Notes under the pieces: generated by a model | The model's input: the letters and a program-made list of their open reading frames with translations, nothing else | What the model was told of the DNA's origin: nothing | Database searches by the model: none | Assembly: GCF_005144885.1 (NCBI RefSeq) | Contig: NZ_CP039690.1 | Location: 1,935,001-1,999,000, forward strand | Direction of reading: 5' to 3' | Source: Phreatobacter stygius | GTDB lineage: Bacteria > Pseudomonadota > Alphaproteobacteria > Rhizobiales > Phreatobacteraceae | Length of the DNA stretch: 64,000 nt | Shown: piece after piece, positions 3,096 to 39,759 of the stretch | Layout of the letters: each line of letters opens with the position of its first letter | Numbering within the stretch: position 1 is the first letter of the stretch | Program-made: the position numbers and the translations under genes

Positions 3096-5699
<2,604 letters not shown>

Positions 5700-18677: not shown

Positions 18678-18765
18678 GGCAAGCAGGCGGCCGGCAAGGC
18701 CATCGGGATGTTCCCTTATTGTTCTCAGCCCGCGCCTGTGCAGACTGGCACGCGGGGGTTGAACC

Positions 18766-20301
18766 ATGGTCCAACGCGTCGCGACCGTTGCCTTCCAGGG
18801 GATCGAGGCCAAGCCCGTGGACGTGCAGGTTCATGTGCTGGCCGGCAACGTCGTCTTCAATATTGTCGGCCTGCCGGACAAGGCCGTGAACGAAGCCAAG
18901 GAGCGGGTGCGCTCGGCGCTGGTTGCCTCCGGCCTGGCACTGCCCGGCCGGCGCATCACCGTCAATCTCGCGCCGGCCGACCTGCCCAAGGAAGGCAGCC
19001 ATTTCGACCTGCCGATCGCCCTTGGCCTGATGGCCGCCATCGGCGCCATTCCGCATGATGCGCTGGACGGTTTCGTCGTCCTTGGCGAACTGGCGCTGGA
19101 CGGCCGGCTGACGCCGGTTGCCGGCGTCCTGCCGGCGGCCATGGCCGCCAATGCGCAAGGTCTCGGCATCATCTGCCCGGCGGCCTGCGGCCCGGAAGCT
19201 GCCTGGGCCGGCGAGGCCGTCGAGGTGCTCGCCCCCGACAACCTGGTTCAACTGGCCAATCATTTCAAAGGCACGCAGGTCCTGTCGCGGCCCAAGCCCG
19301 GCATTCGCGCCGTCGATGCGCCGCTCGCCGATTTCCGCGACATCAAGGGCCAGGAGAGCGCCAAGCGCGCGGTCGAGATCGCCGCCGCCGGTGGCCACGC
19401 CCTGTTGATGAGCGGTCCGCCGGGATCCGGCAAGTCCATGCTGGCGAGCCGCATGCCATCGATCCTGCCGCCCCTGGCGCCAGCCGAACTGCTGGAAGTC
19501 TCGATGATCCATTCGGTGGCGGGGGAACTCGAAGGCGGAGCCTTGACCACGCGGCGGCCATTCCGGGCCCCACATCACTCCGCCACCATGCCGGCGCTGA
19601 TCGGCGGCGGCCAAAGGATCAAACCCGGCGAGGTGTCGCTCGCCCATCACGGCGTGCTGTTCCTCGACGAACTGCCGGAGTTCCAGCCACACGTGCTGGA
19701 TGGGCTGCGCCAGCCGATCGAGACCGGCGAGGCGATGATCGCCCGGGCCAACCAGCGTGTCTGCTTCCCGGCCCGGTTCCAGCTGGTCGCCGCCATGAAC
19801 CCCTGCCGCTGCGGTCTGGCGACCGACCCGGGCCATAGCTGCAAGCGCGCGGCCAATGATCGCTGCATGGCCGACTACCAGGCCAAGATCTCCGGCCCGC
19901 TGATCGACCGGATGGACCTGGTCATCGAGGTGCCGGCGGTCTCGGCTGCCGATCTGATCCTGCCGGCGCCGGGCGAAGGCAGCCGCGAGATCGGCGCCCG
20001 CGTCGCGGGCGCGCGCCTGATCCAGGCCGAACGTTATGCAGCCCTTGGCCTGGCGATCCGCCTCAACGCCCATTGCCCGCCTTCGGTGCTGGACGAGGTG
20101 GCAGCCCTCGATGCCGCCGGCCAGGCGCTGTTGCGCGACGCCGCCGACGCGATGCGGTTGACCGCGCGTGGTTATCACCGCGTCCTCAAGGTCGCCCGGA
20201 CGCTCGCCGATCTCGACGGCGAGGCCAGGCTCGGCCGCATTCACCTCGCCGAGGCGCTGACCTATCGGGGCTCGCCCTCAAAGTTGCGCAGCGCGGCCTG
20301 A
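18766..20301 (+). CDS. comM: ComM/YifB family Mg-chelatase-like AAA+ ATPase
   Basis: 511 residues, full length. N-terminal Lon-protease-like S5 fold domain (1-190), then the AAA+ Mg-chelatase domain with Walker A GPPGSGKSM near 218, Walker B LFLDELPEF and the Cys-rich MNPCRCGL segment, then the C-terminal Mg_chelatase_C helix bundle (TARGYHRVLKVARTLADL). In naturally transforming bacteria ComM is a hexameric helicase that promotes branch migration during recombination of incoming DNA. The last 49 codons plus stop (20152-20301) recur at 39505-39654 beyond the secretion block. The gene itself appears intact, so either it was restored by the incoming copy or the second copy is a duplicate. Confidence 0.95.
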   Translation: MVQRVATVAFQGIEAKPVDVQVHVLAGNVVFNIVGLPDKAVNEAKERVRSALVASGLALPGRRITVNLAPADLPKEGSHFDLPIALGLMAAIGAIPHDALDGFVVLGELALDGRLTPVAGVLPAAMAANAQGLGIICPAACGPEAAWAGEAVEVLAPDNLVQLANHFKGTQVLSRPKPGIRAVDAPLADFRDIKGQESAKRAVEIAAAGGHALLMSGPPGSGKSMLASRMPSILPPLAPAELLEVSMIHSVAGELEGGALTTRRPFRAPHHSATMPALIGGGQRIKPGEVSLAHHGVLFLDELPEFQPHVLDGLRQPIETGEAMIARANQRVCFPARFQLVAAMNPCRCGLATDPGHSCKRAANDRCMADYQAKISGPLIDRMDLVIEVPAVSAADLILPAPGEGSREIGARVAGARLIQAERYAALGLAIRLNAHCPPSVLDEVAALDAAGQALLRDAADAMRLTARGYHRVLKVARTLADLDGEARLGRIHLAEALTYRGSPSKLRSAA

Positions 20302-20315
20302 AGCAACCTGCCCTG
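20152..20315 (+). repeat. Left direct repeat: 3' end of comM
   Basis: The last 150 nt of comM (from the ATG triplet at 20152 to the TGA at 20299-20301) plus about 14 nt. By hand alignment it differs from 39505-39654 at 11 of 150 positions with no gaps, and 74 consecutive bases (20173-20246) are identical. Upstream of 20150 the two loci share nothing visible. Confidence 0.92.
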
Positions 20316-20670
20316 GCTTCATAGCCGCCCCAGATCCCGGCTGCGCGTGGCGCCTGTCGATGTAGCCGGAGGCCGGACCGGAACTATTGGCCGGCTGAAC
20401 GTCGTGGAACAAGCCGCCAAATCTGGCTGTAGCGATCAAATCCTGGCTTGCTACCGCAGCTTGTGAACATCGGTGGCCATACCTCCAATGGCTATAACCC
20501 TTTTGCCCAGGGTGCCGGACATCGTTCCTAAGTGTCTCTTTGAGTCTAAACGCCAAAGCCGTGTCGCACGGGCGAACGCGAGGCGGGCATGGGTGTGCCA
20601 GGTGGACCCTGGATGCCAGAGGGACTCCGCAGTTTCCCACACTACGTCCTGGCCGCAAGGGATCTGTCTC
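20302..20670. other. Upstream region of the giant gene
   Basis: 369 bases between comM and the chosen start at 20671. It must contain the promoter of the secretion block unless that block depends on read-through from comM. The frame of the giant gene is open back to 20473, but the predicted residues (many Arg, Cys, His) look unlike the protein. A weak inverted pair GCCAT-N7-ATGGC occurs near 20475-20495. No clear -35/-10 pair or RNA gene. Confidence 0.45.
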
Positions 20671-23600
20671 ATGACCAAGATCAGCCGCGAGATCGCTTTC
20701 ATCGACGTCAAGGTGAATGACCTCACCACGTTGCTGGCGGGGCTTCGACCGGAGGTCGAACCGATCTTGTTGGCGGAGGGCCAGCCGGCGCCGCGGCAGA
20801 TGGCGGAGGCGATGAAGCATCGCGCCGGCCTCGCCGCCATTCACGTCATCGCCCACGGCGGATCGGGCGAGGTATGCTTCGGATCGGGCGCGCTCGCGCT
20901 CGAGACGCTCGACGACCATAGCGAGGATCTTGCCGCGATCGGCGAGGCGCTCGGTGACCATGGCGAGCTGCTGCTGTGGAGCTGCAATAGCGGGCGGGGC
21001 GAGCGCGGGGCGTCTTTCGTCGATGCGCTTGCACGCACGACCGGAGCAAAGGTTGCGTCGGCCGCCGGCCGCGTCGGCGCCGCGGCGTTGGGCGGCTGTT
21101 GGGCGCTCGACAGGTGCTGCGGAACCACCAAGGCCCTGCCGCCGCTGACGGCGAAGGGGATTGCGGCCTATGCGGGCGTGATGGCGACGGTAACCGCAAC
21201 GACAGGGGCCGACAATTTCACCGGGACCGGCGGCACCGGCAACACGACCACGGGCACCGACACGATCAATATTGCCAATGGCACAGTGCAAAGTGGAGAC
21301 GTGTTCAACGGCGGCGGCGGCGCCGACACGATCGCCCTGACGAGCAGCGGCACGACCGCTGATTTCACGGTCGCCACGGTCACCAGCGTCGAGACCCTCA
21401 GCGGCAGCGGCAGCGGCGACACGGTCACGCTGACCGCAGCCCAATTCGCCGGCTTCACGACCATCAATCTGGGCGGCGGGACGGATACGCTGAATGTCGT
21501 CGTGAACGGCACGGTCGATATTTCGGGCAGTGGCTTTCCCATGCTGACGAATATCGAGAACCGCAACATTACCGGCACCGCCGGCGCCGATTCCCTCACG
21601 ATGACGGCTGCGCAATTCTCCCTGTTCGATGCGTCAGGCATCAATTCTTCGATCGACCTCGGTGGCGGGCAGGACTCGCTCACGGTCGTGACCACGGGGA
21701 ACTTCAACTGGTCCAGCGTAGCCCCGGACGCGTTCCTGAACATCGAAAGCGTCACCATCCGCGACACGGGCGGGGGGCACACCATCTCGGGCGGCAACGT
21801 CGCCACGACATTCATCGTAGGCGGCGGTGACACCGTCACCGGCATGACTGCCAACGACAGATTCGACATTGCCGCCGACAACGTGCGCGACGACCTTGAC
21901 GGCGGTGGCGGTTCGGACACGGCGAATTTCTCGGCCTTCACGGCCGGCCTGACTGTCGTCTTGAATGGCAGCAGCCTGGCAACTGTCGGCGGCACCGGCT
22001 CCGGGTCGAACACCGACCGGATCCAGAACATCGAGAATTTCATCGGCGGTTCCGGCAATGATTCGATCACCGGTGACGGCAGCGCCAACATTCTGACCGG
22101 TGGCGGCGGCAACGACACGATCACTGGCGCCGGTGGCACCGATACGGTCGTCTTTTCCGGCAATCGGGCGAACTACCTGATTACGCTGAGCGGCGCGACC
22201 TACACGGTCGTGGATACCCGCGCGGGCTCGCCCGATGGCACCGATACGGTGACCACGGTCGAAAATTTCCAATTCGCCGATGGCACATTCACCGCCGGAG
22301 GGACGCTCGACGTCACGGCGCCTTCGGCCGCCTCGATCACCTCGGTGACCGACGACGTGTCGCCGGTCACCGGCGCGCTGGCGAACGGCGCCAGCACCAA
22401 CGATCCCGACCTGACGGTGAGAGTGAGCCTGACCGGCACCGGCGCGGTGGCCGGCGACGCCGTCCGCCTCTACAACGGCAGCGGCACGGGCAGCCCCTTG
22501 GGCAGCGCCTATACTCTCACCGCCGCCGACATCAGCAACGGCTTTGCCAATGTCCAGACCGGAACGCTGACGAACGGCACCACCTACACGATCACGGCCC
22601 GCATCACCGACGGCCAGGGCAATCAGAGCGCCGTCTCGACCAACAGCTTCACGGTGACCGAGGATACGTCTGCGCCGTCGGCGCCATCGATCACCTCTGT
22701 GACCGACAACGTGTCGCCGGTGACCGGCGCGCTGGCGAACGGCGCCAGCACCAACGATCCCGACCTGACGGTGAGAGTGAGCCTGACCGGCACCGGCGCC
22801 GTGGCCGGCGACACTATACGCCTCTATGACGGCACCGGCACGGGCAGCCCCTTGGGCAGCGCCTATACGCTTACCGCCGCCGACATCGGCAACGGCTTTG
22901 CCAATGTCCAGACCGGAACGCTGACAAACGGCACCACCTACGCCATCACAGCCCGCATCACCGACGGAGCCGGCAACCAGAGCAACGGTTCTGGCGCTTT
23001 CACTGTGACCGAGGACACCACGGCACCTTCGGCCAGCCTGACGGTCAACGCCATCACCGCGGACAATATCCTGAACGCGGCGGAGGCCGGATCGAGCGTG
23101 ACGGTGACCGGCACGGTCGGCGGTGATGTCCAGGACGGCGACATCGTCAGCCTGACGGTCAATGGCACGGTCTATAGCGGTGCGGCCTCGGGCGGCACGT
23201 TCAGCATTGCGGTGTCAGGCAGCGACCTGGCCGCCGACAGCAACACGACGGTCGATGCCAGCGTCACCACGACGGACGCGGCCGGCAACAGCACGACGGC
23301 CAGCACAACTCACGCCTATGCCGTCGACACCACGGCGCCGTCGGCGAGCCTGACGGTCAACGCGATCACCGCCGACAATATCCTGAACGCGGCGGAGGCC
23401 GGATCGAACGTCACGGTGACCGGCACGGTCGGCGGCGACGTCCAGGATGGCGATATCGTCAGCCTGACTGTCAATGGCACGGTCTATAGTGGTGCGGCCT
23501 CGGCCGGCAGCTTCAGCATTGCGGTCGCCGGTTCCGATCTCGCCGCCGATGCCGACACCACCGTTGCGGCCAGCGTCACCACCACGGACGCCGCCGGCAA

Positions 23601-26600
23601 CAGCACGACGGCGACGGCGAGCCAGTCCTATGTCGTCGACACGACGGCACCGGCAGCGAGCATCAGCGTCAACGCCATCACCGCTGACAATATCCTGAAC
23701 GCGGCAGAGGCCGGATCGAACGTCACGGTGACCGGCACGGTCGGCGGTGATGTCCAGGATGGCGACATCGTCAGCCTGACGGTCAATGGCACGGTCTATA
23801 GCGGTGCGGCCTCGGGCGGCAGCTTCAGCATCGCAGTGTCAGGCAGCGACCTGGCGGCCGATGCCGACACCGCCGTTGCGGCCAGCGTCACCACCACCGA
23901 CGCCGCCGGCAACAGCACGACGGCGACGGCGAGCCAGAGCTATGCGGTCGACACGACGGCCCCGGCAGCGAGCATCAGCGTCAACGCCATCACCGCTGAC
24001 AATATCCTGAACGCGGCGGAGGCCGGAACCAATGTCACGGTGACCGGCACGGTCGGCGGTGATGTCCAGGATGGCGACATCGTCAGCCTGACGGTCAATG
24101 GCACGGTCTATAGCGGTGCGGCCTCGGGCGGCAGCTTCAGCATCGCAGTGTCAGGCAGCGACCTGGCGGCCGATGCCGACACCGCCGTTGCGGCCAGCGT
24201 CACCACCACCGACGCCGCCGGCAACAGCACAACGGCGACGGCGAGCCAGAGCTATGCGGTCGACACGACGGCCCCGGCAGCGAGCATCAGCGTCAACGCC
24301 ATCACCGCTGACAATATCCTGAACGCGGCGGAGGCCGGAACCAATGTCACGGTGACCGGCACGGTCGGCGGCGATGTCCAGGATGGCGATATCGTCAGCC
24401 TGACGGTCAATGGCACGATCTATAGCGGCGCGGCCTCGGGTGGCAGCTTCAGCATTGCGGTGGCTGGTTCCGACCTGGCGGCCGACAGCGACACCACCGT
24501 TGCGGCCAGCGTCACCACGACGGACGCGGCCGGCAACAGCACGACGGCCAGCACAACTCACGCCTATGCCGTCGACACCACGGCGCCGTCGGCGAGCCTG
24601 ACGGTCAATGCGATCACCGCCGACAATATCCTGAACGCGGCGGAGGCCGGATCGAGCGTGACGGTGACCGGCACGGTCGGCGGTGATGTCCAGGACGGCG
24701 ACATCGTCAGTCTGACGGTCAATGGCAGCACGTACACGGGTGCGGCCTCGGCCGGCACTTTCAGCATCGCGGTCGCCGGTTCCGATCTCGCCGCCGATGC
24801 CGACGCCACCGTTGCGGCCAGCGTCACCACCACCGATGCCGCCGGCAACAGCACGACGGCCAGCACAACTCACGCCTATGCCGTCGACACCACGGCGCCG
24901 TCGGCGAGCCTGACGGTCAATGCGATCACCGCCGACAATATCCTGAACGCGGCGGAGGCCGGATCGAACGTCACGGTGACCGGCACGGTCGGCGGCGACG
25001 TCCAGGATGGCGACATCGTCAGCCTGACGGTCAATGGCAGCACGTACACGGGTGCGGCCTCGGGTGGCAGCTTCAGCATTGCGGTCGCCGGTTCTGATCT
25101 CGCCGCCGATGCCGATACCACCGTTGCAGCCAGCGTCACCACCACCGACGCCGCCGGCAACAGCACAACGGCGACGGCGAGCCAGAGCTATGCGGTCGAC
25201 ACGACCGGGCCAGCGGCCAGCCTGACGGTCAATGCGATCACCGCCGACAATATCCTGAACGCGGCGGAGGCCGGGACCAATGTCACGGTGACCGGCACGG
25301 TCGGCGGCGACGTCCAGGACGGCGACATCGTCAGCCTGACGGTCAATGGCACGGTCTATAGCGGTGCGGCCTCGGCCGGCAGCTTCAGCATCGCGGTCGC
25401 TGGTTCCGATCTCGCCGCCGATGCCGATACCACCGTTGCGGCCAGCGTCACCACGACGGACGCCGCCGGCAACAGCACGACGGCGACGGCGAGCCAGAGC
25501 TATGCGGTCGACACGACCGGGCCAGCGGCCAGCCTGACGGTCAACGCCATCACCGCGGACAATATCCTGAACGCGGCGGAGGCCGGATCGAACGTGACGG
25601 TGACCGGCACGGTCGGCGGTGATGTCCAGGATGGCGACATCGTCAGCCTGACGGTCAATGGCACGGTCTATAGCGGTGCGGCCTCGGGCGGCACGTTCAG
25701 CATTGCGGTGGCTGGTTCCGATCTCGCCGCCGATGCCGACACCACCGTTGCGGCCAGCGTCACCACCACCGACACCGCCGGCAACAGCACGACGGCCAGC
25801 ACTACTCACGCCTATGCCGTCGACACCACGGCACCTGCGGCCAGCCTGACGGTCAATGCGATCACCGCCGACAACATCCTGAACGCGGCAGAGGCCGGAT
25901 CGAACGTCACGGTGACCGGCACGGTCGGCGGTGATGTCCAGGATGGCGACATCGTCAGCCTGACGGTCAATGGCAGCACGTACACGAGTGCGGCCTCGGC
26001 CGGCACTTTCAGCATCGCGGTGGCTGGTTCCGATCTCGCCGCCGATGCCGACACCACCGTTGCGGCCAGCGTCACCACCACCGATGCCGCCGGCAACAGC
26101 ACGACGGCGACGGCGAGCCAGAGCTATGTCGTCGACACGACCGGGCCAGCGGCCAGCCTGACGGTCAACGCCATCACCGCCGACAATATCCTGAATGCGG
26201 CAGAGGCCGGAACCAATGTCACAGTGACCGGCACGGTCGGCGGTGATGTCCAGGACGGCGACATCGTCAGCCTGACGGTCAATGGCACGGTCTATAGCGG
26301 TGCGGCCTCGGGCGGCACGTTCAGCATTGCGGTCGCCGGTTCCGATCTCGCCGCCGATGCCGATACCACCGTTGCGGCCAGCGTCACCACGACGGACGCG
26401 GCCGGCAACAGCACGACGGCCAGCACAACTCACGCCTATGCCGTCGACACCACGGCGCCGTCGGCGAGCCTGACGGTCAACGCGATCACCGCCGACAATA
26501 TCCTGAACGCGGCGGAGGCCGGATCGAGCGTGACGGTGACCGGCACGGTCGGCGGCGACGTCCAGGACGGCGACATCGTCAGCCTGACGGTCAATGGCAG

Positions 26601-29600
26601 CACGTACACGGGTGCGGCCTCGGCCGGCACGTTCAGCATCGCGGTCGCCGGTTCCGATCTCGCCGCCGATGCCGACACCACCGTTGCGGCCAGCGTCACC
26701 ACGACGGACGCGGCCGGCAACAGCACGACGGCCAGCACAACTCACGCCTATGCCGTCGACACCACGGCGCCGTCGGCGAGCCTGACGGTCAATGCGATCA
26801 CCGCCGACAATATCCTGAACGCGGCGGAGGCCGGAACCAATGTCACGGTGACCGGCACGGTCGGCGGCGACGTCCAGGATGGCGACATCGTCAGCCTGAC
26901 GGTCAATGGCACGGTCTATAGCGGCGCGGCCTCGGGCGGCAGCTTCAGCATCGCAGTGTCAGGCAGCGACCTGGCCGCCGATGCCGACACCACCGTTGCG
27001 GCCAGCGTCACCACCACCGATGCCGCCGGCAACAGCACGACGGCGACGGCGAGCCAGTCCTATGCGGTCGATGCGACCGGACCAGCGGCCAGCCTGACGG
27101 TCAACGCCATCACCGCCGACAATATCCTGAACGCGGCAGAGGCCGGATCGAACGTCACGGTGACCGGCACGGTCGGCGGCGACGTCCAGGACGGCGACAT
27201 CGTCAGCCTGACGGTCAATGGCACGGTCTATAGCGGCGCGGCCTCGGCCGGCAGCTTCAGCATTGCGGTCGCCGGTTCCGATCTCGCCGCCGATGCCGAC
27301 ACCACCGTTGCAGCCAGCGTCACGACGACGGACGCCGCCGGCAACAGCACGACGGCCAGCACAACTCACGCCTATGTCGTCGACACGACGGCACCGGCAG
27401 CGAGCATCAGCGTCAACGCCATCACCGCCGACAATATCCTGAATGCGGCAGAGGCCGGATCGAACGTCACGGTGACCGGCACGGTCGGCGGCGATGTCCA
27501 GGATGGCGACATCGTCAGCCTGACGGTCAACGGCACGGTCTATAGCGGTGCGGCCTCGGCCGGCAGCTTCAGCATCGCGGTCGCTGGTTCCGATCTCGCC
27601 GCCGATGCCGATACCACCGTTGCGGCCAGCGTCACCACGACGGACGCCGCCGGCAACAGCACGACGGCGACGGCGAGCCAGAGCTATGCGGTCGACACGA
27701 CCGGGCCAGCGGCCAGCCTGACGGTCAACGCCATCACCGCGGACAATATCCTGAACGCGGCGGAGGCCGGATCGAACGTCACGGTGACCGGCACGGTCGG
27801 CGGTGATGTCCAGGACGGCGACATCGTCAGCCTGACGGTCAATGGCACGGTCTATAGCGGTGCGGCCTCGGCCGGCACTTTCAGCATTGCGGTGTCAGGC
27901 AGCGACCTGGCCGCCGACAGCAACACGACGGTCGATGCCAGCGTCACCACGACGGACGCGGCCGGCAACAGCACGACGGCCAGCACAACTCACGCCTATG
28001 CCGTCGACACCACGGCGCCGTCGGCGAGCCTGACGGTCAACGCGATCACCGCCGACAATATCCTGAACGCGGCGGAGGCCGGATCGAGCGTGACGGTGAC
28101 CGGCACGGTCGGCGGTGATGTCCAGGATGGCGACATCGTCAGCCTGACGGTCAATGGCACGGTCTATAGCGGTGCGGCCTCGGGCGGCAGCTTCAGCATC
28201 GCAGTGTCAGGCAGCGACCTGGCGGCCGATGCCGACACCGCCGTTGCGGCCAGCGTCACCACCACGGACGCCGCCGGCAACAGCACGACGGCGACGGCGA
28301 GCCAGTCCTATGCGGTCGACACGACGGCACCGGCAGCGAGCATCAGCGTCAACGCCATCACCGCCGACAACATCCTGAACGCGGCGGAGGCCGGATCGAA
28401 CGTCACGGTGACCGGCACGGTCGGCGGCGACGTCCAGGATGGCGACATCGTCAGCCTGACGGTCAATGGCAGCACGTACACGGGTGCGGCCTCGGCCGGC
28501 ACTTTCAGCATTGCGGTCGCTGGTTCCGATCTCGCCGCCGATGCCGACACCACCGTTGCAGCCAGCGTCACGACGACGGACGCCGCCGGCAACAGCACGA
28601 CGGCGACGGCGAGCCAGAGCTATGCGGTCGACACGACGGCACCGGCAGCGAGCATCAGCGTCAACGCCATCACCGCCGACAACATCCTGAACGCGGCGGA
28701 GGCCGGAACCAATGTCACGGTGACCGGCACGGTCGGCGGCGATGTCCAGGATGGCGACATCGTCAGCCTGACGGTCAATGGCAGCACGTACACGGGTGCG
28801 GCCTCGGCCGGCACTTTCAGCATTGCGGTGTCAGGCAGCGACCTGGCCGCCGACAGCAACACGACGGTCGATGCCAGCGTCACCACGACGGACGCGGCCG
28901 GCAACAGCACGACGGCCAGCACAACTCACGCCTATGCCGTCGACACCACGGCGCCGTCGGCGAGCCTGACGGTCAACGCGATCACCGCCGACAATATCCT
29001 GAACGCGGCGGAGGCCGGATCGAGCGTGACGGTGACCGGCACGGTCGGCGGTGATGTCCAGGATGGCGACATCGTCAGCCTGACGGTCAATGGCACGGTC
29101 TATAGCGGTGCGGCCTCGGGCGGCAGCTTCAGCATCGCAGTGTCAGGCAGCGACCTGGCGGCCGATGCCGACACCGCCGTTGCGGCCAGCGTCACCACCA
29201 CGGACGCCGCCGGCAACAGCACGACGGCGACGGCGAGCCAGTCCTATGCGGTCGACACGACGGCACCGGCAGCGAGCATCAGCGTCAACGCCATCACCGC
29301 CGACAACATCCTGAACGCGGCGGAGGCCGGATCGAACGTCACGGTGACCGGCACGGTCGGCGGCGACGTCCAGGATGGCGACATCGTCAGCCTGACGGTC
29401 AATGGCAGCACGTACACGGGTGCGGCCTCGGCCGGCACTTTCAGCATTGCGGTCGCTGGTTCCGATCTCGCCGCCGATGCCGACACCACCGTTGCAGCCA
29501 GCGTCACGACGACGGACGCCGCCGGCAACAGCACGACGGCGACGGCGAGCCAGAGCTATGCGGTCGACACGACGGCACCGGCAGCGAGCATCAGCGTCAA

Positions 29601-32600
29601 CGCCATCACCGCCGACAACATCCTGAACGCGGCGGAGGCCGGAACCAATGTCACGGTGACCGGCACGGTCGGCGGCGATGTCCAGGATGGCGACATCGTC
29701 AGCCTGACGGTCAATGGCAGCACGTACACGGGTGCGGCCTCGGCCGGCACTTTCAGCATTGCGGTCGCTGGTTCCGATCTCGCCGCCGATGCCGACACCA
29801 CCGTTGCAGCCAGCGTCACCACCACCGACGCCGCCGGCAACAGCACGACGGCGACGGCGAGCCAGAGCTATGCGGTCGATGCGACCGGGCCAGCGGCCAG
29901 CCTGACGGTCAACGCGATCACCGCCGACAACATCCTGAACGCGGCAGAGGCCGGATCGAACGTGACGGTGACCGGCACGGTCGGCGGTGATGTCCAGGAT
30001 GGTGATATCGTCAGCCTGACGGTCAATGGCACGGTCTATAGCGGTGCGGCCTCGGGTGGCAGCTTCAGCATCGCGGTCGCCGGTTCCGATCTCGCCGCCG
30101 ATGCCGACACCACCGTTGCGGCCAGCGTCACGACGACGGACGCGGCCGGCAACAGCACGACGGCGACGGCAAGCCAGAGCTATGCGGTCGATGCGACCGG
30201 ACCAGCAGCGAGCATCAGCGTCAACGCCATCACCGCTGACAATATCCTGAACGCGGCAGAGGCCGGAACCAATGTCACGGTGACCGGCACGGTCGGCGGT
30301 GACGTCCAGGACGGCGACATCGTCAGCCTGACGGTCAATGGCACGGTCTATAGCGGTGCGGCCTCGGGTGGCAGCTTCAGCATCGCAGTGTCAGGCAGCG
30401 ACCTGGCGGCCGACAGCGACACGACGGTCGATGCCAGTGTCACCACCACCGATGCCGCCGGCAACAGCACGACGGCGACGGCGAGCCAGAGCTATGCCGT
30501 CGACACGACGGCACCGGCAGCGAGCATCAGCGTCAACGCCATCACCGCCGACAATATCCTGAACGCGGCGGAGGCCGGATCGAACGTCACGGTGACCGGC
30601 ACGGTCGGCGGCGACGTCCAGGACGGCGACATCGTCAGCCTGACGGTCAATGGCACAGTCTATAGCGGCGCGGCCTCGGGCGGCAGCTTCAGCATCGCGG
30701 TGGCCGGTTCCGATCTCGCCGCCGATGCCGACACCACCGTTGCGGCCAGCGTCACCACCACCGATGCCGCCGGCAACAGCACCACGGCGACGGCGAGCCA
30801 GAGCTATGCGGTCGATGCGACCGGACCAGCGGCCAGCCTGACGGTCAATGCGATCACCGCCGACAATATCCTGAACGCGGCGGAGGCCGGAACCAATGTC
30901 ACGGTGACCGGCACGGTCGGCGGTGACGTCCAGGACGGCGACATCGTCAGCCTGACGGTCAATGGCACGGTCTATAGCGGCGCGGCCTCGGCCGGCACTT
31001 TCAGCATCGCGGTGGCTGGTTCCGATCTCGCCGCCGATGCCGACACCACCGTTGCGGCCAGCGTCACCACCACCGACGCCGCCGGCAACAGCACGACGGC
31101 CAGCACTACTCACGCCTATGCCGTCGACACCACGGCACCTGCGGCCAGCCTGACGGTCAATGCGATCACCGCCGACAACATCCTGAACGCGGCAGAGGCC
31201 GGATCGAACGTCACGGTGACCGGCACGGTCGGCGGTGATGTCCAGGATGGCGACATCGTCAGCCTGACGGTCAATGGCAGCACGTACACGGGTGCGGCCT
31301 CGGCCGGCACTTTCAGCATCGCGGTGGCTGGTTCCGATCTCGCCGCCGATGCCGACACCACCGTTGCGGCCAGCGTCACCACCACCGATGCCGCCGGCAA
31401 CAGCACGACGGCGACGGCGAGCCAGAGCTATGTCGTCGACACGACCGGGCCAGCGGCCAGCCTGACGGTCAACGCCATCACCGCCGACAATATCCTGAAT
31501 GCGGCAGAGGCCGGAACCAATGTCACAGTGACCGGCACGGTCGGCGGCGATGTCCAGGATGGCGATATCGTCAGCCTGACGGTCAATGGCAGCACGTACA
31601 CGGGCGCGGCCTCGGGTGGCAGCTTCAGCATTGCGGTCGCCGGTTCCGATCTCGCCGCCGATGCCGACACCACCGTTGCGGCCAGCGTCACCACGACGGA
31701 CGCAGCCGGAAACAGCACCACAGCGACAGCGAGCCAGAGCTATGCCGTCGACATCGCCGGTCCGGCGGTGGCGATCACCACGATCGAGGGTGGCGACACG
31801 ACGATCAGCGCGGCGGAAGCCGCCGGTGGCATCACCGTCGCCGGCACGGCCGAGGCCGGTTCGACCCTGACGGTCAATGGCGTGGCGGTGACGGTGGCCG
31901 GTGACGGCACTTGGACCACCAGCGTGGCGGCCCCCGCGGCCGACGGCGACCTGGTGGTCACCGCGATCGCCACCGACGCGGCCGGCAACAGCCAGTCGGC
32001 GACCACGACGCTGCAGGTCGACATCGCCGGTCCGGCGGTGGCGATCACCACGATCGAGGGTGGCGACACGACGATCAGCGCGGCGGAAGCCGCCGGTGGC
32101 ATCACCGTCTCCGGCACGGCCGAGGCCGGTTCGACCCTGACGGTCAATGGCGTGGCGGTGACGGTCGCCGGTGACGGCAGCTGGACCACCAGCGTGGCGG
32201 CCCCCGCGGCCGACGGCGACCTGGTGGTCACCGCGGTCGCCACCGATGCGGCCGGCAACAGCCAATCGGCGACCACGACGCTGACTGTCGACATCGCCGG
32301 TCCGGCGGTGGCGATCACCACGATCGAGGGCGGCGACACGACGATCAGCGCGGCGGAAGCCGCCGGCGGCATCACCGTCTCCGGCACGGCCGAGGTTGGT
32401 TCGACCCTGACGGTCAATGGCGTGGCGGTGACGGTCGCCGGTGACGGCAGCTGGACCACCAGCGTGGCGGCCCCCGCGGCCGACGGCGACCTGGTGGTCA
32501 CCGCGGTCGCCACCGATGCGGCCGGCAACAGCCAGTCGGCGACCACGACGCTGACTGTCGACACTGCCGGTCCGGCGGTGGCGATCACCACGATCGAGGG

Positions 32601-35600
32601 TGGCGATACGACGATCAGCGCGGCGGAAGCCGCCGGCGGCATCACCGTCTCCGGCACGGCCGAGGTTGGTTCGACCCTGACGGTCAATGGCGTGGCGGTG
32701 ACGGTCGCCGGCGACGGCAGCTGGACCACCAGCGTGGCGGCCCCCGCGGCCGACGGCGACCTGGTGGTCACCGCGGTCGCCACCGATGCGGCCGGCAACA
32801 GCCAATCGGCGACCACGACGCTGACTGTCGACACTGCCGGTCCGGCGGTGGCGATCACCACGATCGAGGGTGGCGACACGACGATCAGCGCGGCGGAAGC
32901 CGCCGGTGGCATCACCGTCGCCGGCACGGCCGAGGCCGGTTCGACCCTGACGGTCAATGGCGTGGCGGTGACGGTGGCCGGTGACGGCACTTGGACCACC
33001 AGCGTGGCGGCCCCCGCGGCCGACGGCGACCTGGTGGTCACCGCGATCGCCACCGACGCGGCCGGCAACAGCCAGTCGGCGACCACGACGCTGCAGGTCG
33101 ACATCGCCGGTCCGGCGGTGGCGATCACCACGATCGAGGGTGGCGACACGACGATCAACGCGGCCGAAGCCGCCGGCGGCATCACCGTCTCCGGCACGGC
33201 CGAGGTTGGTTCGACCCTGACGGTCAATGGCGTGGCGGTGACGGTCGCCGGTGACGGCACTTGGACCACCAGCGTGGCGGCCCCCGCGGCCGACGGCGAC
33301 CTGGTGGTCACCGCGATCGCCACCGATGCGGCCGGCAACAGCCAGTCGGCGACCACGACGCTGACTGTCGACACTGCCGGTCCGGCGGTGGCGATCACCA
33401 CGATCGAGGGTGGCGACACGACGATCAGCGCGGCCGAAGCCGCCGGCGGCATCACCGTCTCCGGCACGGCCGAGGCCGGTTCGACCCTGACGGTCAATGG
33501 CGTGGCGGTGACGGTCGCCGGTGACGGCACTTGGACCACCAGCGTGGCGGCCCCCGCGGCCGACGGCGACCTGGTTGTCACCGCGGTCGCCACCGATGCG
33601 GCCGGCAACAGCCAGTCGGCGACCACGACGCTGACTGTCGACACTGCCGGTCCGGCGGCTGCGGTGGCGATCACCGCGATTTCCACCGACACCGGTGGGT
33701 CGTCGACCGACTTCGTCACCAGCGACACCACGCTGACGGTCAGCGGCAGCAATGGCGCGCTGGGCAGCGGCGAAAAGGTGCAGGTCTCGACCGACGGCAC
33801 CACCTGGGTCGACGTTACGCCGACCGACAGCACGCATTGGAGTTATACCGACCCGGCCATCCACAGCGCGAGCTTCACCTACCTGGCGCGGGTGGTGGAC
33901 GCTGACGGCAATGTCGGCAATACGACCAGCCAGGCGGTCATCATCGATACTGCGGCGCCGGCGGCTGCGGTGGCGATCGCCGCGATTTCCACCGACACCG
34001 GTGGGTCGTCGACCGACTTCGTCACCAGCGACACCACGCTGACGGTCAGCGGCAGCAATGGCGCGCTGGGCAGCGGCGAGAAGGTCCAGATCAGCATTGA
34101 CGGCACCACCTGGGTCGACGTTACGCCGACCGACAGCACGCATTGGAGTTATACCGACCCGGCCGTCCATAGCACCAGCTTCACCTACCAGGTGCGGGTG
34201 GTCGATAGCGCCGGCAATGTCGGCAATACCGCGAGCCAGGCGGTCACCATCGACACCACGGCGTCTGCGGCCACGGTAGCGATCACCGCGATTTCCACCG
34301 ACACCGGGACGTCGTCGACCGACTTCGTCACCAGCGACACCACGCTGACGGTCAGCGGCAGCAATGGCGCGCTGGGCAGCGGCGAGAAGGTCCAGGTCTC
34401 GACCGACGGCACCATCTGGGTCGACGTTACGCCGACCGACAGCACGCACTGGAGTTATACCGACCCGGCTGTCCATGGCACCAGCTTCACCTACCAGGTG
34501 CGGGTGGTCGATAGCGCCGGCAATGTCGGCAATACCGCGAGCCAGGCGGTCACCATCGACACCACGGCAGATTCCGGAACCACGGCATCGGTCGATATCA
34601 CGCCGACAACGATCAATGCCGCCGGCGAGAGCTCTGTCGCCTACACGATTGCGGGTGTCGACCCCGACGCGACCGCGAGTATCACATTCACCAGCAGCGG
34701 TGGGGGATCTGTTACGGTGGCCGGACTCGGCAATGGCTCGTACACCGTCGATCTGACATCGTTGAATGACGGGACGATAACCGCGTCGATCGCACTAACC
34801 GATACGGCCGGTAACAGCGCGATCGGCACCGGCGACACAGCGACACTGAATACCGGTTCCGGTGCCACCATCACGGGCACTTCAGGCCCGGACCTGCTGA
34901 TTGGCACCAACGGCAATGACACGCTGATGGCCCTCGGTGGCAATGACATCCTCATCGGCGGTGGCGGTAACGACAGCCTCCAAGGCCAAGCCGGCAACGA
35001 CACCTTCCTGTATATGGAAGGCGACGGAGCGGACACCACCAATGGCGGCGCTGGCACCGACAGTCTCTACATTACAGGGACCTCGGCGAACGACACGATC
35101 AATGTCGTGACCTCAGGGGGCGAGATTACCGGCCTCGAAGGCGGCACGGTCGCGAGCGTCGAGAAAGTCTACCTGAATCTTGGTGGCGGCAGCGCGGATA
35201 CGCTGAGCTATGCCGGCACGAGCTCGAAAGTGACGGTCAACCTGTCGACCTCGGACGCGACCGGGTTCAACTCGATCGCGGGGGTGGAGAACGTCACTGG
35301 TGGATCCGGAAATGACACGCTCACCGGAGACAACGGCAACAACATACTCGACGGTGGCGCCGGCAATGACCTCATCACGGCCCTTGGCGGCAACGACACG
35401 CTGATTGGCGGAGTAGGAAACGATACGCTGGTCGCCGGTTCCGGCAACGATGTCATTCTTGGCGGCGACGGTAGCGATACGATCCGCTACACGGCCGGCA
35501 GCGGCGTGGATACGATCGACGGCGGCACGGGCACGGACAAGCTCGTCGTTACGGGGACCGGAGGCAACGACACGATCAATGTCGTGGTCACGGGCACGAC

Positions 35601-36252
35601 GATCACCGGTCTTGCCGGCGGCGGTGTCACCGGCGTCGAGAACGTCACGCTCGATCTCGGCGGGGGCGCGAGCGACACGCTGAACTATGCGGGAACGACG
35701 TCAAATGTGACGGTCAACCTGGCGAACGGCAGTGCGACCGGCTTCAGCTCGATCGACGGCGTGGAGAACGTCATTGGCGGTGACGGCAACGACACTCTGA
35801 CCGGCAGCTCGTCCGCTGACCAGCTCAACGGCGGAGCCGGCAACGACACCATCAAGGGAGGTGCCGGAGCCGATGCGCTCACCGGTGGCAGTGGCAGCGA
35901 TACGTTCGTCTACACCAGTCTGGCGAACTCGCGGGCGGCCTCCTTCGACACGATCAGCGATTTCACGACCGGTGTCGACAAAGTCCAGATCGGCCACGCT
36001 CTCAACGGTCTGACCACCGGCATCGTGAAGTCCTCCGGCATCACCGGGAACCTCGCGACCGACCTCGCCAGCGTCCTCAATAGCGCAAACCTCAAAGCCA
36101 ATGGCGCTGCCGAGGTGACCATCAGCAGCGGTGCCGCCGCCGGAACCTACCTCGTCATCAACGATGGAACGGCCGGCTACAACGCGAACAATGACAGCGT
36201 CGTCAAGCTGACAGGCGCGCCGCTCCTGCACACGACCGATTTCATCGTTTGA
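20671..36252 (+). CDS. Giant RTX/Ig-like repeat protein, predicted type I secretion substrate
   Basis: 5,193 residues from ATG 20671, preceded by AAGGGA. Layout: DUF4347-like domain (about 4-150) with H62 in IAHGGSGE and C105 in LWSCNSGRG, a His/Cys pair placed as in clan CD cysteine peptidases; RTX-like segment (171-547; [24 protein letters not shown]); two ~117-residue Ig-like units (550-784); 28 tandem units of exactly 104 residues (785-3696); 7 units of 90 (3697-4326); 3 units of 102 (4327-4632); a last Ig-like unit; RTX nonapeptides (4730-5077; [17 protein letters not shown]); and a C-terminal tail ending in DFIV without a Sec signal. This matches adhesin-like type I secretion substrates exported by the next two gene products. 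Probable role: surface adhesion or biofilm matrix. Unlike LapA-type adhesins, no N-terminal retention module or LapD/LapG gene is seen. Pro, Cys, Lys and Arg are nearly absent from the array. Confidence 0.9.
22318..23022 (+). repeat. Two ~117-aa Ig-like units inside the giant gene
   Basis: Unit 1 is 22318-22671 (354 nt) and unit 2 is 22672-23022 (351 nt). Both carry [15 protein letters not shown] and [15 protein letters not shown]. They differ at few residues, chiefly at the end where the linker changes. They precede and differ from the 104-residue family. Confidence 0.85.
23023..31758 (+). repeat. 28 tandem 312-bp (104-aa) Ig-like units
   Basis: Unit n starts at 23023 + 312(n-1); all 28 are exactly the same length with no indels, and 28 x 312 ends at 31758. 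Each unit reads like [18 protein letters not shown] ... [19 protein letters not shown] ... [11 protein letters not shown]. Variation is confined to about seven short sites (for example [48 protein letters not shown]), shuffled among units. Confidence 0.97.
27861..29765 (+). repeat. Higher-order duplication: two 936-bp three-unit blocks
   Basis: 27861-28829 and 28797-29765 appear identical by eye at a 936-bp (3 x 312) offset, covering units 17-19 and 20-22 with shared edges. The left edge is where the GTVYSG/GSTYTG variants differ, and the right edge is where AVSGS/AVAGS differ. Confidence 0.85.
31759..33648 (+). repeat. 7 tandem 270-bp (90-aa) Ig-like units
   Basis: Starts at 31759, 32029, 32299, 32569, 32839, 33109 and 33379. 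Each contains [35 protein letters not shown] and [14 protein letters not shown] few sites vary ([28 protein letters not shown]). The family differs from the 104-residue units though both end in DAAGNS. Confidence 0.95.
33649..34566 (+). repeat. 3 tandem 306-bp (102-aa) Ig-like units
   Basis: Each unit has [37 protein letters not shown] and [10 protein letters not shown]. These are the first units in the array with Lys and Arg. Confidence 0.93.
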
Positions 36253-36330
36253 GGCGCGCGGGGACAGGCAGTGCATGCGGTTCTGTAGCGGCGATTGTTC
36301 GTCGCCATCGCAATTCGACGAGGTTGCACC

Positions 36331-38118
36331 ATGCAAGCGCAGTTCCGGAGCGAGACGAAATCAAGCGCCAACGGGGCGAAGCGCACGAGCGGTGCAGACC
36401 GCGCGAGGATATACAAGAACAAGGACGAACTGCGAGAACTGCTGTTTTCGTGCAGAGGCTATTTCATCACCGCCGTGATCTTCAGCCTGGCGATCAATCT
36501 GCTGTATCTCGCCGGCCCGCTTTACATGCTTCAGGTCTACGATCGCGTCGTCTCGAGCGGGAGCATGGTCACGCTCCTGATGCTGACGATCTTGCTGCTG
36601 GTCGCCTTCGCAGCCCTGGCCGGTCTCGACCTGGTCCGGACTCGCATCCTGGCGCGCGCGTCGATCCGTCTCGACCAGCGGATGGCGGGGCGCGTGATGG
36701 CGGCGATCGTCGATGCCTCACTCAAGACCGGAACCGCAAAGAGCCAATATCTTCGTGACTTCGATCATGTCCGACAGTGCATTACCGGCGTGGGAATTCA
36801 TGCCCTTCTCGACCTGCCCTGGGCGCCGATCTACATCGCGGTGATCTTTCTCCTTCATCCCCTGTTGGGAGCTTTCGCCCTCGGTGCCGCGATCCTGCTC
36901 ATTCTCGTGGCATTGCTCAACGAATGGTGGGTGCGCGGGCCGCTCGGCGAAGCCAACGAGGCCGGGGTTCGCGGCTACAGCTTCGCCGACATGAGCCTCC
37001 GCAATGCGGAGGTCGTGCAGGCGATGGGCATGCTGGGCGGCCTGCTGCGGCGGTGGAGCCGGGATCGCGATCTGGCCCTTGATCGACAACTGACGGCAAG
37101 CGACCGCGCCGCCGCCATGTCGAGCCTGATCCGCTTCCTGCGCCTGTCGGTACAATCCATCATTCTCGGCCTCGGCGCCTATCTGGTCGTCGAGCGCGCC
37201 GTGACGGTCGGGTCGATGTTTGCGGCCGCGATCCTGCTCGGGCGGGCCATGCAGCCGGTCGAACAGATCGTCGGGGCCTGGCGCACCGTGGTGTCGGCGC
37301 GAAGCGCCTATGGGCGCGTGGGAATGCTTCTCAAGGCCACGCCGGAGCCCGAGCCACGACTGTCGCTGCCCAGACCAGCCGGCAACCTGTCGGTCGAGAA
37401 CGTCAGCTACATGCTTCACGGGAGCTCACGGCCGATCCTGCGCGCGATAGAATTTCAACTGGCGGCAGGTGAACTGCTCGGTGTGGTCGGGCCTTCGGGC
37501 GCCGGTAAATCGACACTGGCCCGCCACATCGTGGGCGTCTTGGCGCCGACCGCCGGTTCGGTACGTCTCGACGGCGCTGACGTATCGACCTGGCCGCGGG
37601 CTTCCTTTGGTTGTCATGTCGGTTATCTCCCGCAGGACATCGAGCTTTTCGCCGACACCGTGGCGGCCAATATCAGCCGGTTTCAAAATGGCGACGATGA
37701 CAAGGTCATCGAGGCCGCGAAGCGTGCCAGCGTGCATGAGATGATTTTGCGCCTTCCGAACGGATATGAGACGCAGGTCGGCGAGGGCGGCGCGATCCTG
37801 TCGGGCGGCTACCGGCAGCGCATTGGATTGGCCCGCGCGATCTATGGCAATCCAAGCCTGGTGGTGCTCGACGAGCCGAGTTCAAACCTTGATGTCGATG
37901 GCGACTCCGCGCTCATGGACTGCCTTGCGCAGCTCAAGAAGGCAGGCACCGCGGTGGTCATCATATCTCATCGACCGAGCACCCTCGGTGTGGCCGATAA
38001 GATCTTGATGATCCGCGATGGTGCTGTCGAGCTGTTCGGGCCGCGCACTGAAATATTGGCGCGCCTGACGCGCCCCGTCGCGGTTCCCGCAACACCTGCC
38101 AGGAGCGCGGAGTCGTAA
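36331..38118 (+). CDS. Type I secretion ABC transporter/ATPase (PrtD/HlyB-like)
   Basis: 595 residues from ATG 36331 with GAGG 9 nt upstream; the frame is open to a TTG at 36295. Six predicted membrane helices in an ABC exporter domain (about 50-320; FSLAINLLYLAGPLYMLQVYDR is the PrtD-type opening, in part), then the nucleotide-binding domain: Walker A GPSGAGKST, Q-loop near GYLPQDIELF, signature LSGGYRQRIGLARA and Walker B LVVLDEPSSNLD. Position 5 of the signature is Tyr rather than the usual Gln. No C39 peptidase is present, so the substrate is not cleaved at a GG leader. It pumps the substrate through an adaptor and TolC channel. Directly follows the giant gene and precedes the adaptor. 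Confidence 0.95.
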   Translation: MQAQFRSETKSSANGAKRTSGADRARIYKNKDELRELLFSCRGYFITAVIFSLAINLLYLAGPLYMLQVYDRVVSSGSMVTLLMLTILLLVAFAALAGLDLVRTRILARASIRLDQRMAGRVMAAIVDASLKTGTAKSQYLRDFDHVRQCITGVGIHALLDLPWAPIYIAVIFLLHPLLGAFALGAAILLILVALLNEWWVRGPLGEANEAGVRGYSFADMSLRNAEVVQAMGMLGGLLRRWSRDRDLALDRQLTASDRAAAMSSLIRFLRLSVQSIILGLGAYLVVERAVTVGSMFAAAILLGRAMQPVEQIVGAWRTVVSARSAYGRVGMLLKATPEPEPRLSLPRPAGNLSVENVSYMLHGSSRPILRAIEFQLAAGELLGVVGPSGAGKSTLARHIVGVLAPTAGSVRLDGADVSTWPRASFGCHVGYLPQDIELFADTVAANISRFQNGDDDKVIEAAKRASVHEMILRLPNGYETQVGEGGAILSGGYRQRIGLARAIYGNPSLVVLDEPSSNLDVDGDSALMDCLAQLKKAGTAVVIISHRPSTLGVADKILMIRDGAVELFGPRTEILARLTRPVAVPATPARSAES

Positions 38119-38154
38119 GCGCCCGGCTTTGACGACCATGTACAGGAGTTGATC

Positions 38155-39501
38155 GTGAGTCAGGCTGCCGTCATTGCAGGCGCACCACCAGCCACCGTCG
38201 CTGATCCGGCGGGCCCGAACGACGCGTTTCGCGGGTCAGCCATCGCGGGGTGGCTCATTATCGCGGCTTTTTTTGGCGGGCTCGGGTTCTGGTCCGTCAC
38301 GGCCCCCCTCAACGGAGCCGTCGTGGCGAGCGCCGTGGTGAAGGTCGATGGCAATCGAAAGAGCGTCCAGCACCTGGATGGCGGCATCGTCAAGCAATTG
38401 CGCGTGAGGGAAGGCGACAAGGTCCAGGTCGGCGATGTCCTCATCGTTCTGGACGACACCCAGGCACGCGCAGAACTGGATGTGTTCTCTGAGCAATTTG
38501 TCGTCTTGCGGGCGACCGAGGAGCGGCTACGGGCAGAGTTCGGCCGTCGTCCCGAACTGGCCATGCCGCGCGACCTGACGACCCTCGAAGACCGCCGGCA
38601 TGTCGCGAGCATATGGGACGGTCAGGTTCGCCAATTTGACAGCAGGCTTGCCGCCCTGGAGGGCCAACGCAGCATCATCAAGGAGAAGATCGCGCAGCTC
38701 GAACATCAGATCGTCGGTGGCGAAGCGCAGGTCAGGGCGTTCAAGGCGCAACTCGATTCCGTTCGCAACGAGATCTTGAGCCTGGCGACGCTCTTGCAGC
38801 AAGGGCTTATCGCGCGGCCTCGCTATTTGCAGCTCGAACGAGCCGCGGCTGGATTGGACGGACAGGCTGCCGACGCGATGGCCAACATCGCCCGATCAAG
38901 GCAGGCAATTGCCGAGCAGCAGCAGCAGATGGCGCAGCTCGACAACGATCGCATGGCGGACATCACGAAGGACCTGAGGGACGTCCAGGCCAAATTGCTG
39001 GAAGTGATTCCGCGGCTGGTGAATGCGCGGGCGGTGCTGAGCCGGATGGAGATCCGGTCACCCTATGGCGGACGTGTCGTTGGTCTGAACGTCTTCTCCG
39101 TCGGCGGAGTGATCCAGCGTGGAGAAAAGATCCTGGACGTGGTGCCGGAACGAGACTCGCTTGTCGTGGAAGCGCAGGTTGCGGTCGACGACATCAGTGA
39201 ACTGCGGCCCGAGATGCGCGCCGAAGTGCATCTGACGGCGTACAAGCAGCGAATCACCCCGATCGTCCATGGGACCGTGTTCCAGATTGCCGCCGACCGG
39301 TTGACGGACACCAGAACCGGCACGCCTTATTACACCGCTTTGCTCCGCATTGACGAAGCTGAACTTGCACAGCTGCCCAATTACCAACTCTATCCCGGCA
39401 TGCCTGCCACGGTCATGATTCCGACAACGCAGCGGACGGCCTTTGAATATCTTGTGGGCCCGCTCATCATGTCGCTCAAACATGGGTTCAGGCAGAAATA
39501 G
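38155..39501 (+). CDS. HlyD-family type I secretion periplasmic adaptor
   Basis: 448 residues. The GTG at 38155 is chosen because AGGAG lies 6 nt upstream; a TTG at 38149 is also in frame. A short cytoplasmic tail and one membrane segment (AGWLIIAAFFGGLGFWSV, about 30-50) are followed by the biotinyl-lipoyl half motif (VQHLDGGIVKQLRVREGDKV), a long coiled coil (110-280) and the C-terminal barrel (IRSPYGGRVVGLNVFSVGG, in part). It bridges the ABC transporter to the outer-membrane TolC channel; no tolC gene lies in the window. Its stop codon is 3 nt before the second copy of the comM 3' end, so it marks the edge of the block. Confidence 0.93.
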   Translation: MSQAAVIAGAPPATVADPAGPNDAFRGSAIAGWLIIAAFFGGLGFWSVTAPLNGAVVASAVVKVDGNRKSVQHLDGGIVKQLRVREGDKVQVGDVLIVLDDTQARAELDVFSEQFVVLRATEERLRAEFGRRPELAMPRDLTTLEDRRHVASIWDGQVRQFDSRLAALEGQRSIIKEKIAQLEHQIVGGEAQVRAFKAQLDSVRNEILSLATLLQQGLIARPRYLQLERAAAGLDGQAADAMANIARSRQAIAEQQQQMAQLDNDRMADITKDLRDVQAKLLEVIPRLVNARAVLSRMEIRSPYGGRVVGLNVFSVGGVIQRGEKILDVVPERDSLVVEAQVAVDDISELRPEMRAEVHLTAYKQRITPIVHGTVFQIAADRLTDTRTGTPYYTALLRIDEAELAQLPNYQLYPGMPATVMIPTTQRTAFEYLVGPLIMSLKHGFRQK

Positions 39502-39504
39502 CTG

Positions 39505-39654
39505 ATGCGGCTGACCGCACGCGACTATCACCGCGTCCTCAAGGTCGCCCGGACGCTCGCCGATCTCGACGGCGAGGCCAGGCTCGGCCGCATTCACCTG
39601 GCCGAAGCGCTGACCTATCGGGGCTCACCCGCAAGGCTGCGCAGCGCGGCCTGA
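39505..39654 (+). pseudogene. comM 3'-end fragment (right direct repeat)
   Basis: 49 codons plus TGA in one open frame, beginning with the ATG triplet. Against the real comM end it has 11 nucleotide and a few residue changes (for example TARDYHR in place of TARGYHR, SPARLR in place of SPSKLR). The altered Gly is normally conserved in ComM proteins, which fits decay. Similarity stops about 14 nt after the TGA. The fragment has no ribosome-binding site of its own and lacks the ATPase domain. Confidence 0.9.
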
Positions 39655-39759
39655 GACAACCCTGCCCTAGGCACCCGGCTCGTATCCTGGTAACCGGTCG
39701 TCAACCACGCCTCTTTACTCTTCCTCGATCTTTTCCGATCCCGCGTGGAGAGACAGCCA

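Follow-up and report, generated by a model that had tools for sequence, protein, structure and literature searches.

The comM gene of Phreatobacter stygius raises a simple question: how did its 3' end come to lie in two places, 19 kb apart, with a set of type I secretion genes between them? We addressed it in a window of 64,000 nucleotides (the whole stretch of DNA that was analyzed, whose numbering is used below unless another locus is named) from a complete genome of one contig (7,354,671 bases; G000), and by comparison with genomes of the same genus, order, and class.

Layout of the comM locus

The initial annotation had noticed that the last 150 nt of comM are present again at positions 39505-39654, and its hand count of 11 gap-free differences from positions 20152-20301 was exactly reproduced. 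When the comM region (17501-21500) was compared with the window by blastn, this was the sole repeat besides the self-match: positions 20151-20317 aligned with 39504-39672 over 169 columns at 91.1% identity, with 13 mismatches and two gap openings (E value, 5e-61). There is no third copy, as a 150-nt comM-end query matched only these two places in its own genome (E <= 0.001). The second copy begins 2-3 nt past the stop codon of the hlyD gene (39501), in agreement with the 3 nt given earlier. As annotated, the block between the copies comprises just a giant open reading frame (ORF), an ABC transporter, and an adaptor, the last two being of the PrtD and HlyD types, respectively. The features of the locus are as follows.

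18766-20301, + strand: comM (yifB), whole, 511 aa (TIGR00368, 506.6 bits against a cut-off of 362.4; 96% identity to the ortholog in L003 over 511 aa)
20151-20317, + strand: repeat copy 1, the 3' end of the live comM (last 49 codons and stop) and about 16 nt past the stop (blastn); probably island-borne, with the derived state at 6 of 8 polarizable sites
20203-20223, + strand: perfect 7-bp inverted repeat with a 7-bp spacer within copy 1; a possible, weak candidate for a recombinase core, in conserved coding sequence that is also present in L003
20318-20670, + strand: left end of the insert, absent from the empty site of L003 (junction alignment)
20473-36252, + strand: giant repeat protein gene, 5259 aa from a GTG start, the ATG at 20671 being the likelier start; N-terminal DUF4347 (PF14252) and RTX nonapeptide motifs (PF00353), with residues 1-609 scanned
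36295-38118, + strand: type I secretion ABC permease/ATPase of the PrtD type (TIGR01842, 690.2 bits against a cut-off of 510.15; PF00005, PF00664)
38149-39501, + strand: type I secretion periplasmic adaptor of the HlyD type, whose stop is the right end of the insert (TIGR01843, 363.4 bits against a cut-off of 208.65; PF13437)
39504-39672, + strand: repeat copy 2, the displaced comM 3' end, probably native, beside the kinase gene (blastn and L003 junction alignment; derived state at 2 of 8 polarizable sites)
39556-39576, + strand: the 21-nt inverted repeat of copy 1, present again in copy 2
39745-41841, + strand: hybrid histidine kinase (PAS, HisKA, HATPase, receiver; domain search), the native right neighbor; in all nine genus genomes examined, its ortholog comes immediately after comM

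The block is thus bracketed by direct repeats, one of which restores comM: the gene is whole, its 511 residues align end to end with those of the L003 ortholog, and it is not interrupted internally. We found no noteworthy inverted terminal repeat joining the two ends of the insert, and neither a sigma-70-like promoter nor a terminator-like site between positions 20000 and 20800. The earlier statement that the block has no visible recombinase also holds: its genome has six matches to the tyrosine recombinase model PF00589, none of them inside the block. Serine recombinase and Tn7-like protein queries had no match in the window by tblastn, and the TnsA/TniA/TniB/TniQ set of locus L197 found nothing there at E <= 1e-4. 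Elsewhere in the genome, two weak tyrosine recombinase matches lie near both ends of the numbering of the circular contig (G000:C1, 26514-27074 and 7352221-7352781).

The empty site and the native copy

The genus is represented by 11 other genomes, of which nine were examined at the locus; G004 and G008, each with a single comM end, were omitted. None of the nine has the block, and each has the kinase ortholog immediately after the comM 3' end. Only the 3' part of comM is at the locus in G009 and G003 (from residues 271 and 277), and in G010 the contig ends inside comM. The comM end is single in 11 of 11 genomes, and none has a doubled comM end without cargo. The nearest relative, L003 (G006), encodes a ComM with 96% identity and has about 117 nt between comM and the start of the kinase frame. 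Sequence to the right of copy 2 matches the L003 gap between comM and the kinase gene as well as the kinase gene itself, and sequence to the right of copy 1 does not. The empty site in the genus and the alignment with L003 at the junction establish that a block of about 19 kb (19.2 kb) was inserted at the 3' end of comM, which is what the initial annotation had suggested.

The 11 differing sites of the 150 nt were polarized with ten ortholog sequences, some genomes being represented twice (L003/G006, L004/G007, and L029/G011). The odd, derived state is found in the live copy at six sites and in the displaced copy at two, and three sites are ambiguous. The copies are identical to each other at 139 of 150 positions and to L003 at 125 and 131 of 150, and their differences show no clean switch along the repeat. 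On these small numbers, the live comM end was probably imported and the displaced right end is probably native, because more changes would be expected in a dead duplicate, yet the live copy is the more derived.

Cargo of the block

The three genes form a type I secretion cluster, in which the ABC and HlyD proteins score above the curated cut-offs and a gene for an RTX-type substrate is adjacent. The giant gene contains three long tandem DNA arrays, with units of 312 bp (23014-31768), 270 bp (31747-33658), and 306 bp (33652-34568). Judged by its gene content, the cargo should produce and export a giant surface or secreted protein of the RTX type; we take this export function to be that of the families concerned. 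In LapA-like systems, giant RTX adhesins are secreted by the type I route with ABC and HlyD partners. The block has the same set and order of genes (substrate, PrtD-type ABC transporter, HlyD), but it differs in being an insert at comM and in having no gene for an outer-membrane channel among its three genes.

Within the 11 other genomes of the genus, relatives of the HlyD adaptor do not exceed 41% identity. A search of 397 genomes of the order brought up five others with matches reaching an E value of 1e-110, three in one genus of another family (69-70% identity) and two in another genus (47-48%). Given these identities, the cargo is foreign to its present genus. Among plasmids, the closest DNA match to the ABC-HlyD pair is on one from Ensifer adhaerens (67% over 77%); for 16 kb on either side of this match, the feature table of the plasmid, which is incomplete according to PLSDB, names neither a comM end nor a recombinase. 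Overall, the host genome has seven matches to HlyD-type adaptors, compared with one to three in the matching genomes of the genus.

Doubled comM 3' ends in other genomes

A 51-aa query from the comM C-terminus matched 371 of 397 genomes of the order, and only G000 and G186, a member of another family, gave two matches. Of other inserts between such repeats, for which the initial annotation had proposed a search, there is none in the genus, and there is one, in G186, at the same comM/kinase junction. Here a whole comM is followed by about 3.4 kb of unrelated cargo (small AHSA1-type, HTH, reductase-like, and kinase-like ORFs, with no recombinase on reading of the ORFs), then by a second comM end (197 nt, 90%), and then by the kinase ortholog. 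The site is empty in its relative G262, where some 300 nt separate the kinase gene from the only comM, which is 95% identical. With G262 as the reference, agreement is found at 12 of 15 informative sites for the comM-attached copy in the left part of the G186 repeat, and at four of five for the kinase-attached copy in the right part (12:3 turning into 1:4; Fisher test, P = 0.03, which is optimistic as the split was chosen by eye post hoc). Decay of the displaced copy could account for part of this pattern.

Alignment of comM C-termini against 385 genomes of the class matched 313, seven of them twice. Local doubling on one contig was seen in G000, G621, G440, and G410; left out of the count were G743 (a likely case, with two contig ends sharing 125 nt), G415 (contig edge), and G495 (10% contamination, with a second comM). 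The repeat in G621 (561 nt, 94%) encloses a 2.4-kb insert that has an HTH gene and encodes a small serine recombinase. That in G440 (293 nt, 96%) has a DUF3800 gene as cargo, and its comM runs off the contig start. In G410 (L183, 7496-8353), the repeat (142 nt, 99%) encloses 0.8 kb, and comM begins only at residue ~210. A whole comM thus stands beside the doubled end in G000, G186, and G621 only. Because the repeats of the five 3'-end cases start at about 31, 50, 66, 51 or more, and 164 codons upstream of the stop, these cases have no shared crossover site.

Two further records have a comM end in an unusual setting. A metagenome-assembled genome (MAG) of Rickettsiales has the comM end in a cargo-free tandem copy of 172 nt (L074, 4719-5060). 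The 21.5-kb IMG/VR contig L167 starts inside the comM 3' end, at residue 468 (positions 1-121), and no integrase was seen on reading the ORFs of its first 10 kb.

Displaced comM 5' ends

For the N-terminal part of comM, an alignment search of the same 385 class genomes gave matches in 314. At least two matches were present in ten genomes, nine of which were placed. Two of them, G624 and G680, were dropped from the counts owing to contig ends. In the other seven (G474, G590, G447, G433, G577, G733, and G560), a displaced 5' piece lies upstream of comM on the same strand. The DNA repeats span 213 nt in G474, 198 in G590, 111 in G447, 176 in G433, and 891 in G577; the repeat of G733 is just 76 nt at 80%, and G560 has none. 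The displaced pieces of G590, G447, G433, and G560 end at similar residues, 34-38. Their cargo is varied: a short ORF, cytochromes, an NAGPA-type protein, a DUF4279 protein, a dGTPase-type protein, and a methylase/specificity pair. In G560 (L189, 8187-9758), where the N-terminus of comM is altered, the stretch between this gene and the displaced 5' piece (residues 1-36) encodes a large serine recombinase and a methylase.

Comparable inserts therefore recur at both ends of comM in other alphaproteobacteria. Repeat lengths are 142-561 nt at the 3' ends and 111-891 nt in five of the 5' cases, and their edges vary and extend beyond the gene end. Over both ends, recombinase genes were recognized in two of 12 inserts (G621 and G560) by ORF reading and Pfam searches of chosen ORFs, which is less than a full scan. 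Eleven of the 12 inserts are 5.5 kb or smaller, the exception being the 19-kb block.

The locus of G577 (L192) has two other peculiarities. A second repeat of 201 nt (97.5%; 3280-3480 and 9523-9723) lies near the doubled 5' part of comM, and this doubled part ends at residue ~218, near the serine recombinase site of other genomes.

Is comM a preferred site?

As a control, the C-terminus of gshB was searched in the same 385 genomes. It matched 284, nine of them with two or more matches; six neighborhoods were inspected, and G486, G505, and G670 were left out. One of the six, G562 (L203, 9561-11235), has a local partial copy: its gshB 3' end is doubled over 121 nt (88%), the two ends lying some 1.4 kb from each other. 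By Fisher test, comM and gshB did not differ significantly (P = 0.38 for the 3' end, 0.13 for the 5' end, and 0.19 for both). Forty arbitrary 20-kb regions contained three qualifying repeats, including those of L216 and L227. When nine of 314 genomes for comM are compared with three repeats per 760 genes, the latter being an assumed gene number, P is 0.0013. In 80 comM-centered loci (1.38 Mb) there were two qualifying repeats, both in Rickettsiales MAGs and neither at comM, and the corresponding comparison (P = 2e-6) assumes one gene per kb. Taken together, enrichment of such inserts at comM is suggestive.

The doubled-end structure is not confined to comM and may be wider. In L227 (13984-15673; G405), the same structure occurs at another gene: the 3' end of a gene for a 136-aa membrane-protein-like product is doubled (136 nt, 88%) around a sigma-factor-like gene and a second small gene. 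We also considered 3'-end doubling as evidence of a comM-specific site and dropped this idea, since the queries were the comM end itself, so that every match contains it, and the 5' control gave more cases, not fewer.

How the block entered

With comM whole on the left and a native-looking end on the right, a comM end must have been part of the incoming DNA. We consider it probable that a 19.2-kb foreign cassette entered comM at or within its last 49 codons with its own copy of them, and that it did so by a single homologous crossover. The incoming DNA would have brought its own version of these codons and of about 16-18 nt more, which would now complete comM on the left, and the resident comM end would have been pushed rightward, next to the kinase gene. 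The crossover, by homologous recombination of the RecA type, would have joined the resident comM to a circle or an imported fragment with a comM end. The repeats would then be both product and vehicle of movement: later recombination between them would free a circle with one comM end, able to enter another comM. Because comM and the upstream region of the kinase gene stay intact, the insertion should have almost no cost for the host, to which it adds a giant secreted protein.

We favor a homologous single crossover over site-specific integration because the repeats are long, vary in extent, and run past the gene ends, and because the cargo is mostly devoid of recombinases. Repeats of variable length and edge are more readily explained by homology that the incoming DNA carried than by a single fixed att core, and a crossover inside the repeat predicts the copy switch of G186. 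Several points count against this reading: a 168-nt arm at ~92% identity is short for efficient RecA recombination, the differences in G000 lack a clean switch, an integrase that was lost or acted in trans predicts the same layout, and the repeat includes the 21-nt inverted repeat. Nor did we find the block as a circle or in a donor together with a comM end, phages giving no match to the comM end and plasmids giving partial ones. Plasmids were rejected as carriers: the ten partial matches are on large records (0.9-4.6 Mb in every case), with a YifB annotation (two features) or none, and we read them as resident comM genes.

Site-specific integration would have required a recombinase of the tyrosine or serine type, afterward lost or else acting in trans, that joined a comM-end attP to an attB in comM; we regard this as rather unlikely. 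Islands that an integrase drives into gene 3' ends (SGI1-like) have a repeat at both ends, a restored gene, and a displaced native end. The block shares this textbook arrangement of repeat, restoration, and displacement, but it differs from such islands in that no integrase was found in it, by the PF00589 or the tblastn tests, and in that the long repeats of the various cases have no common edge. Nor do the five 3'-end cases share a site, and 142-561 nt is long for att sites. The perfect 7-7-7 inverted repeat of 21 nt within the repeat might suit a recombinase, but it is conserved coding sequence. On the other hand, elements with large serine recombinases do use comM, near residue 215 (G045, G581, and G771) and beside the codon-36 piece (G560), and the similar ends of four displaced 5' pieces (G590, G447, G433, and G560), at residues 34-38, are in keeping with such a mechanism. 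The start of L167 in the comM 3' end at residue 468 points the same way, although no integrase is visible in the first 10 kb of that contig.

A third possibility, that the comM 3' end was first doubled in tandem and that cargo was later inserted between the copies, is improbable. The cargo-free 172-nt tandem of L074 offers a precedent, and the copies in G000 share many states against L003. However, all 11 other genomes of the genus are single-ended and none is doubled without cargo, and the live copy should be the less derived one, when it is the more derived. Furthermore, the repeats of G440 and G621 pass the comM stop and the 5' repeats reach upstream of the start, so that each would need a seam-exact insertion. 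Finally, the long tandem arrays of the region are hard to assemble, but an assembly error is scarcely credible and chance similarity is excluded, given the E value of 5e-61, the differences between the copies at 11 of 150 sites, the joining of each copy to its own native flank in a one-contig genome, and the occurrence of the layout in independent genomes.

Entry by a homologous crossover also allows a more general reading, which we offer as a doubtful one. The ends of comM may be docking points for recombinase-free cassettes that bring along a spare comM end, keep ComM functional, and spread by the host homologous recombination that ComM promotes, through transformation or gene transfer agents. 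If so, comM-sparing cassettes would be the mirror image of comM-breaking elements, passengers that spare the gene by which they move, and the 11 of 12 inserts of 5.5 kb or smaller would be of a size that imported fragments could carry.

comM as a target of insertion

Passages of two reports (PMC11472951, PMC4774983) describe AbaR and other elements that break comM in several genera, often with defense genes, and read comM inactivation as a defense of these elements against curing by recombination. With the AbaR/Tn6022-type Tn7-like islands, as outlined in PMC11472951, the block shares comM as the target gene, a large foreign cargo, and recurrence in many lineages; however, those islands cut comM in mid-gene and carry transposition genes, whereas here comM is whole, the break is at its 3' end, and no such protein was matched in the window. 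Likewise, Croucher et al. (2016; PMC4774983) present comM as a recurrent target of mobile elements across species, and the intragenomic-conflict model set out there explains inserts that break comM, whereas the block spares it. Because the layout spares comM, blocking recombination cannot be the benefit that the block derives from its position. The comM-sparing inserts extend the known targeting of comM. Being at odds with the anti-recombination reading, the comM-restoring ones raise the question of what sparing the gene gains them. A passage of PMC10883770 names ComM among the proteins that help DNA of gene transfer agents into recipient cells in alphaproteobacteria, and comM is listed in a table entry of PMC10218006; a class of cassettes that spares comM might depend on the gene-transfer-agent route. 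Our search of the open-licence PMC literature found no report of comM-sparing inserts, which is no proof of absence. The window offers a clean example with an empty site in a complete genome, and G186, with a close empty-site relative, offers a second.

The initial annotation had spoken of a second route to comM. This was right but too modest, as at least four kinds of insertion into comM were seen. In G045 (L193, 4786-6390), G581 (L196, 3976-5562), and G771 (L199, 11943-13793), which represent three families, elements with large serine recombinases split the gene near residue 215, at about the Walker A stretch; the recombinases are 33-43% alike over four proteins. In G752 and G766, inserts with an IS1595-like transposase (protein read by eye) split comM near residues 243 and 305. 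Within the genus itself, a TnsA-TniA-TniB-TniQ set, confirmed by Pfam, borders a comM truncated at residue ~277 in G003 (L197, 11533-16223), and ORFs that look like Tns/Tni genes lie at a comM cut near residue 271 in G009 (L198, 9534-14347).

Viral contigs were searched for comM as well. A search with a single comM C-terminus sequence was discarded, as none of its 50 pattern matches was confirmed, and the exact 21-nt inverted repeat is absent from the viral contigs. An alignment search found 25 IMG/VR contigs with a comM end, 18 of which show only the C-terminal part by BLAST. Serine recombinase matches are present in three of the comM contigs (L146, L147, and L149), and in two of these (L147, 8617-9576, and L149, 8241-9575) the match directly adjoins a comM piece that starts at residue ~332.
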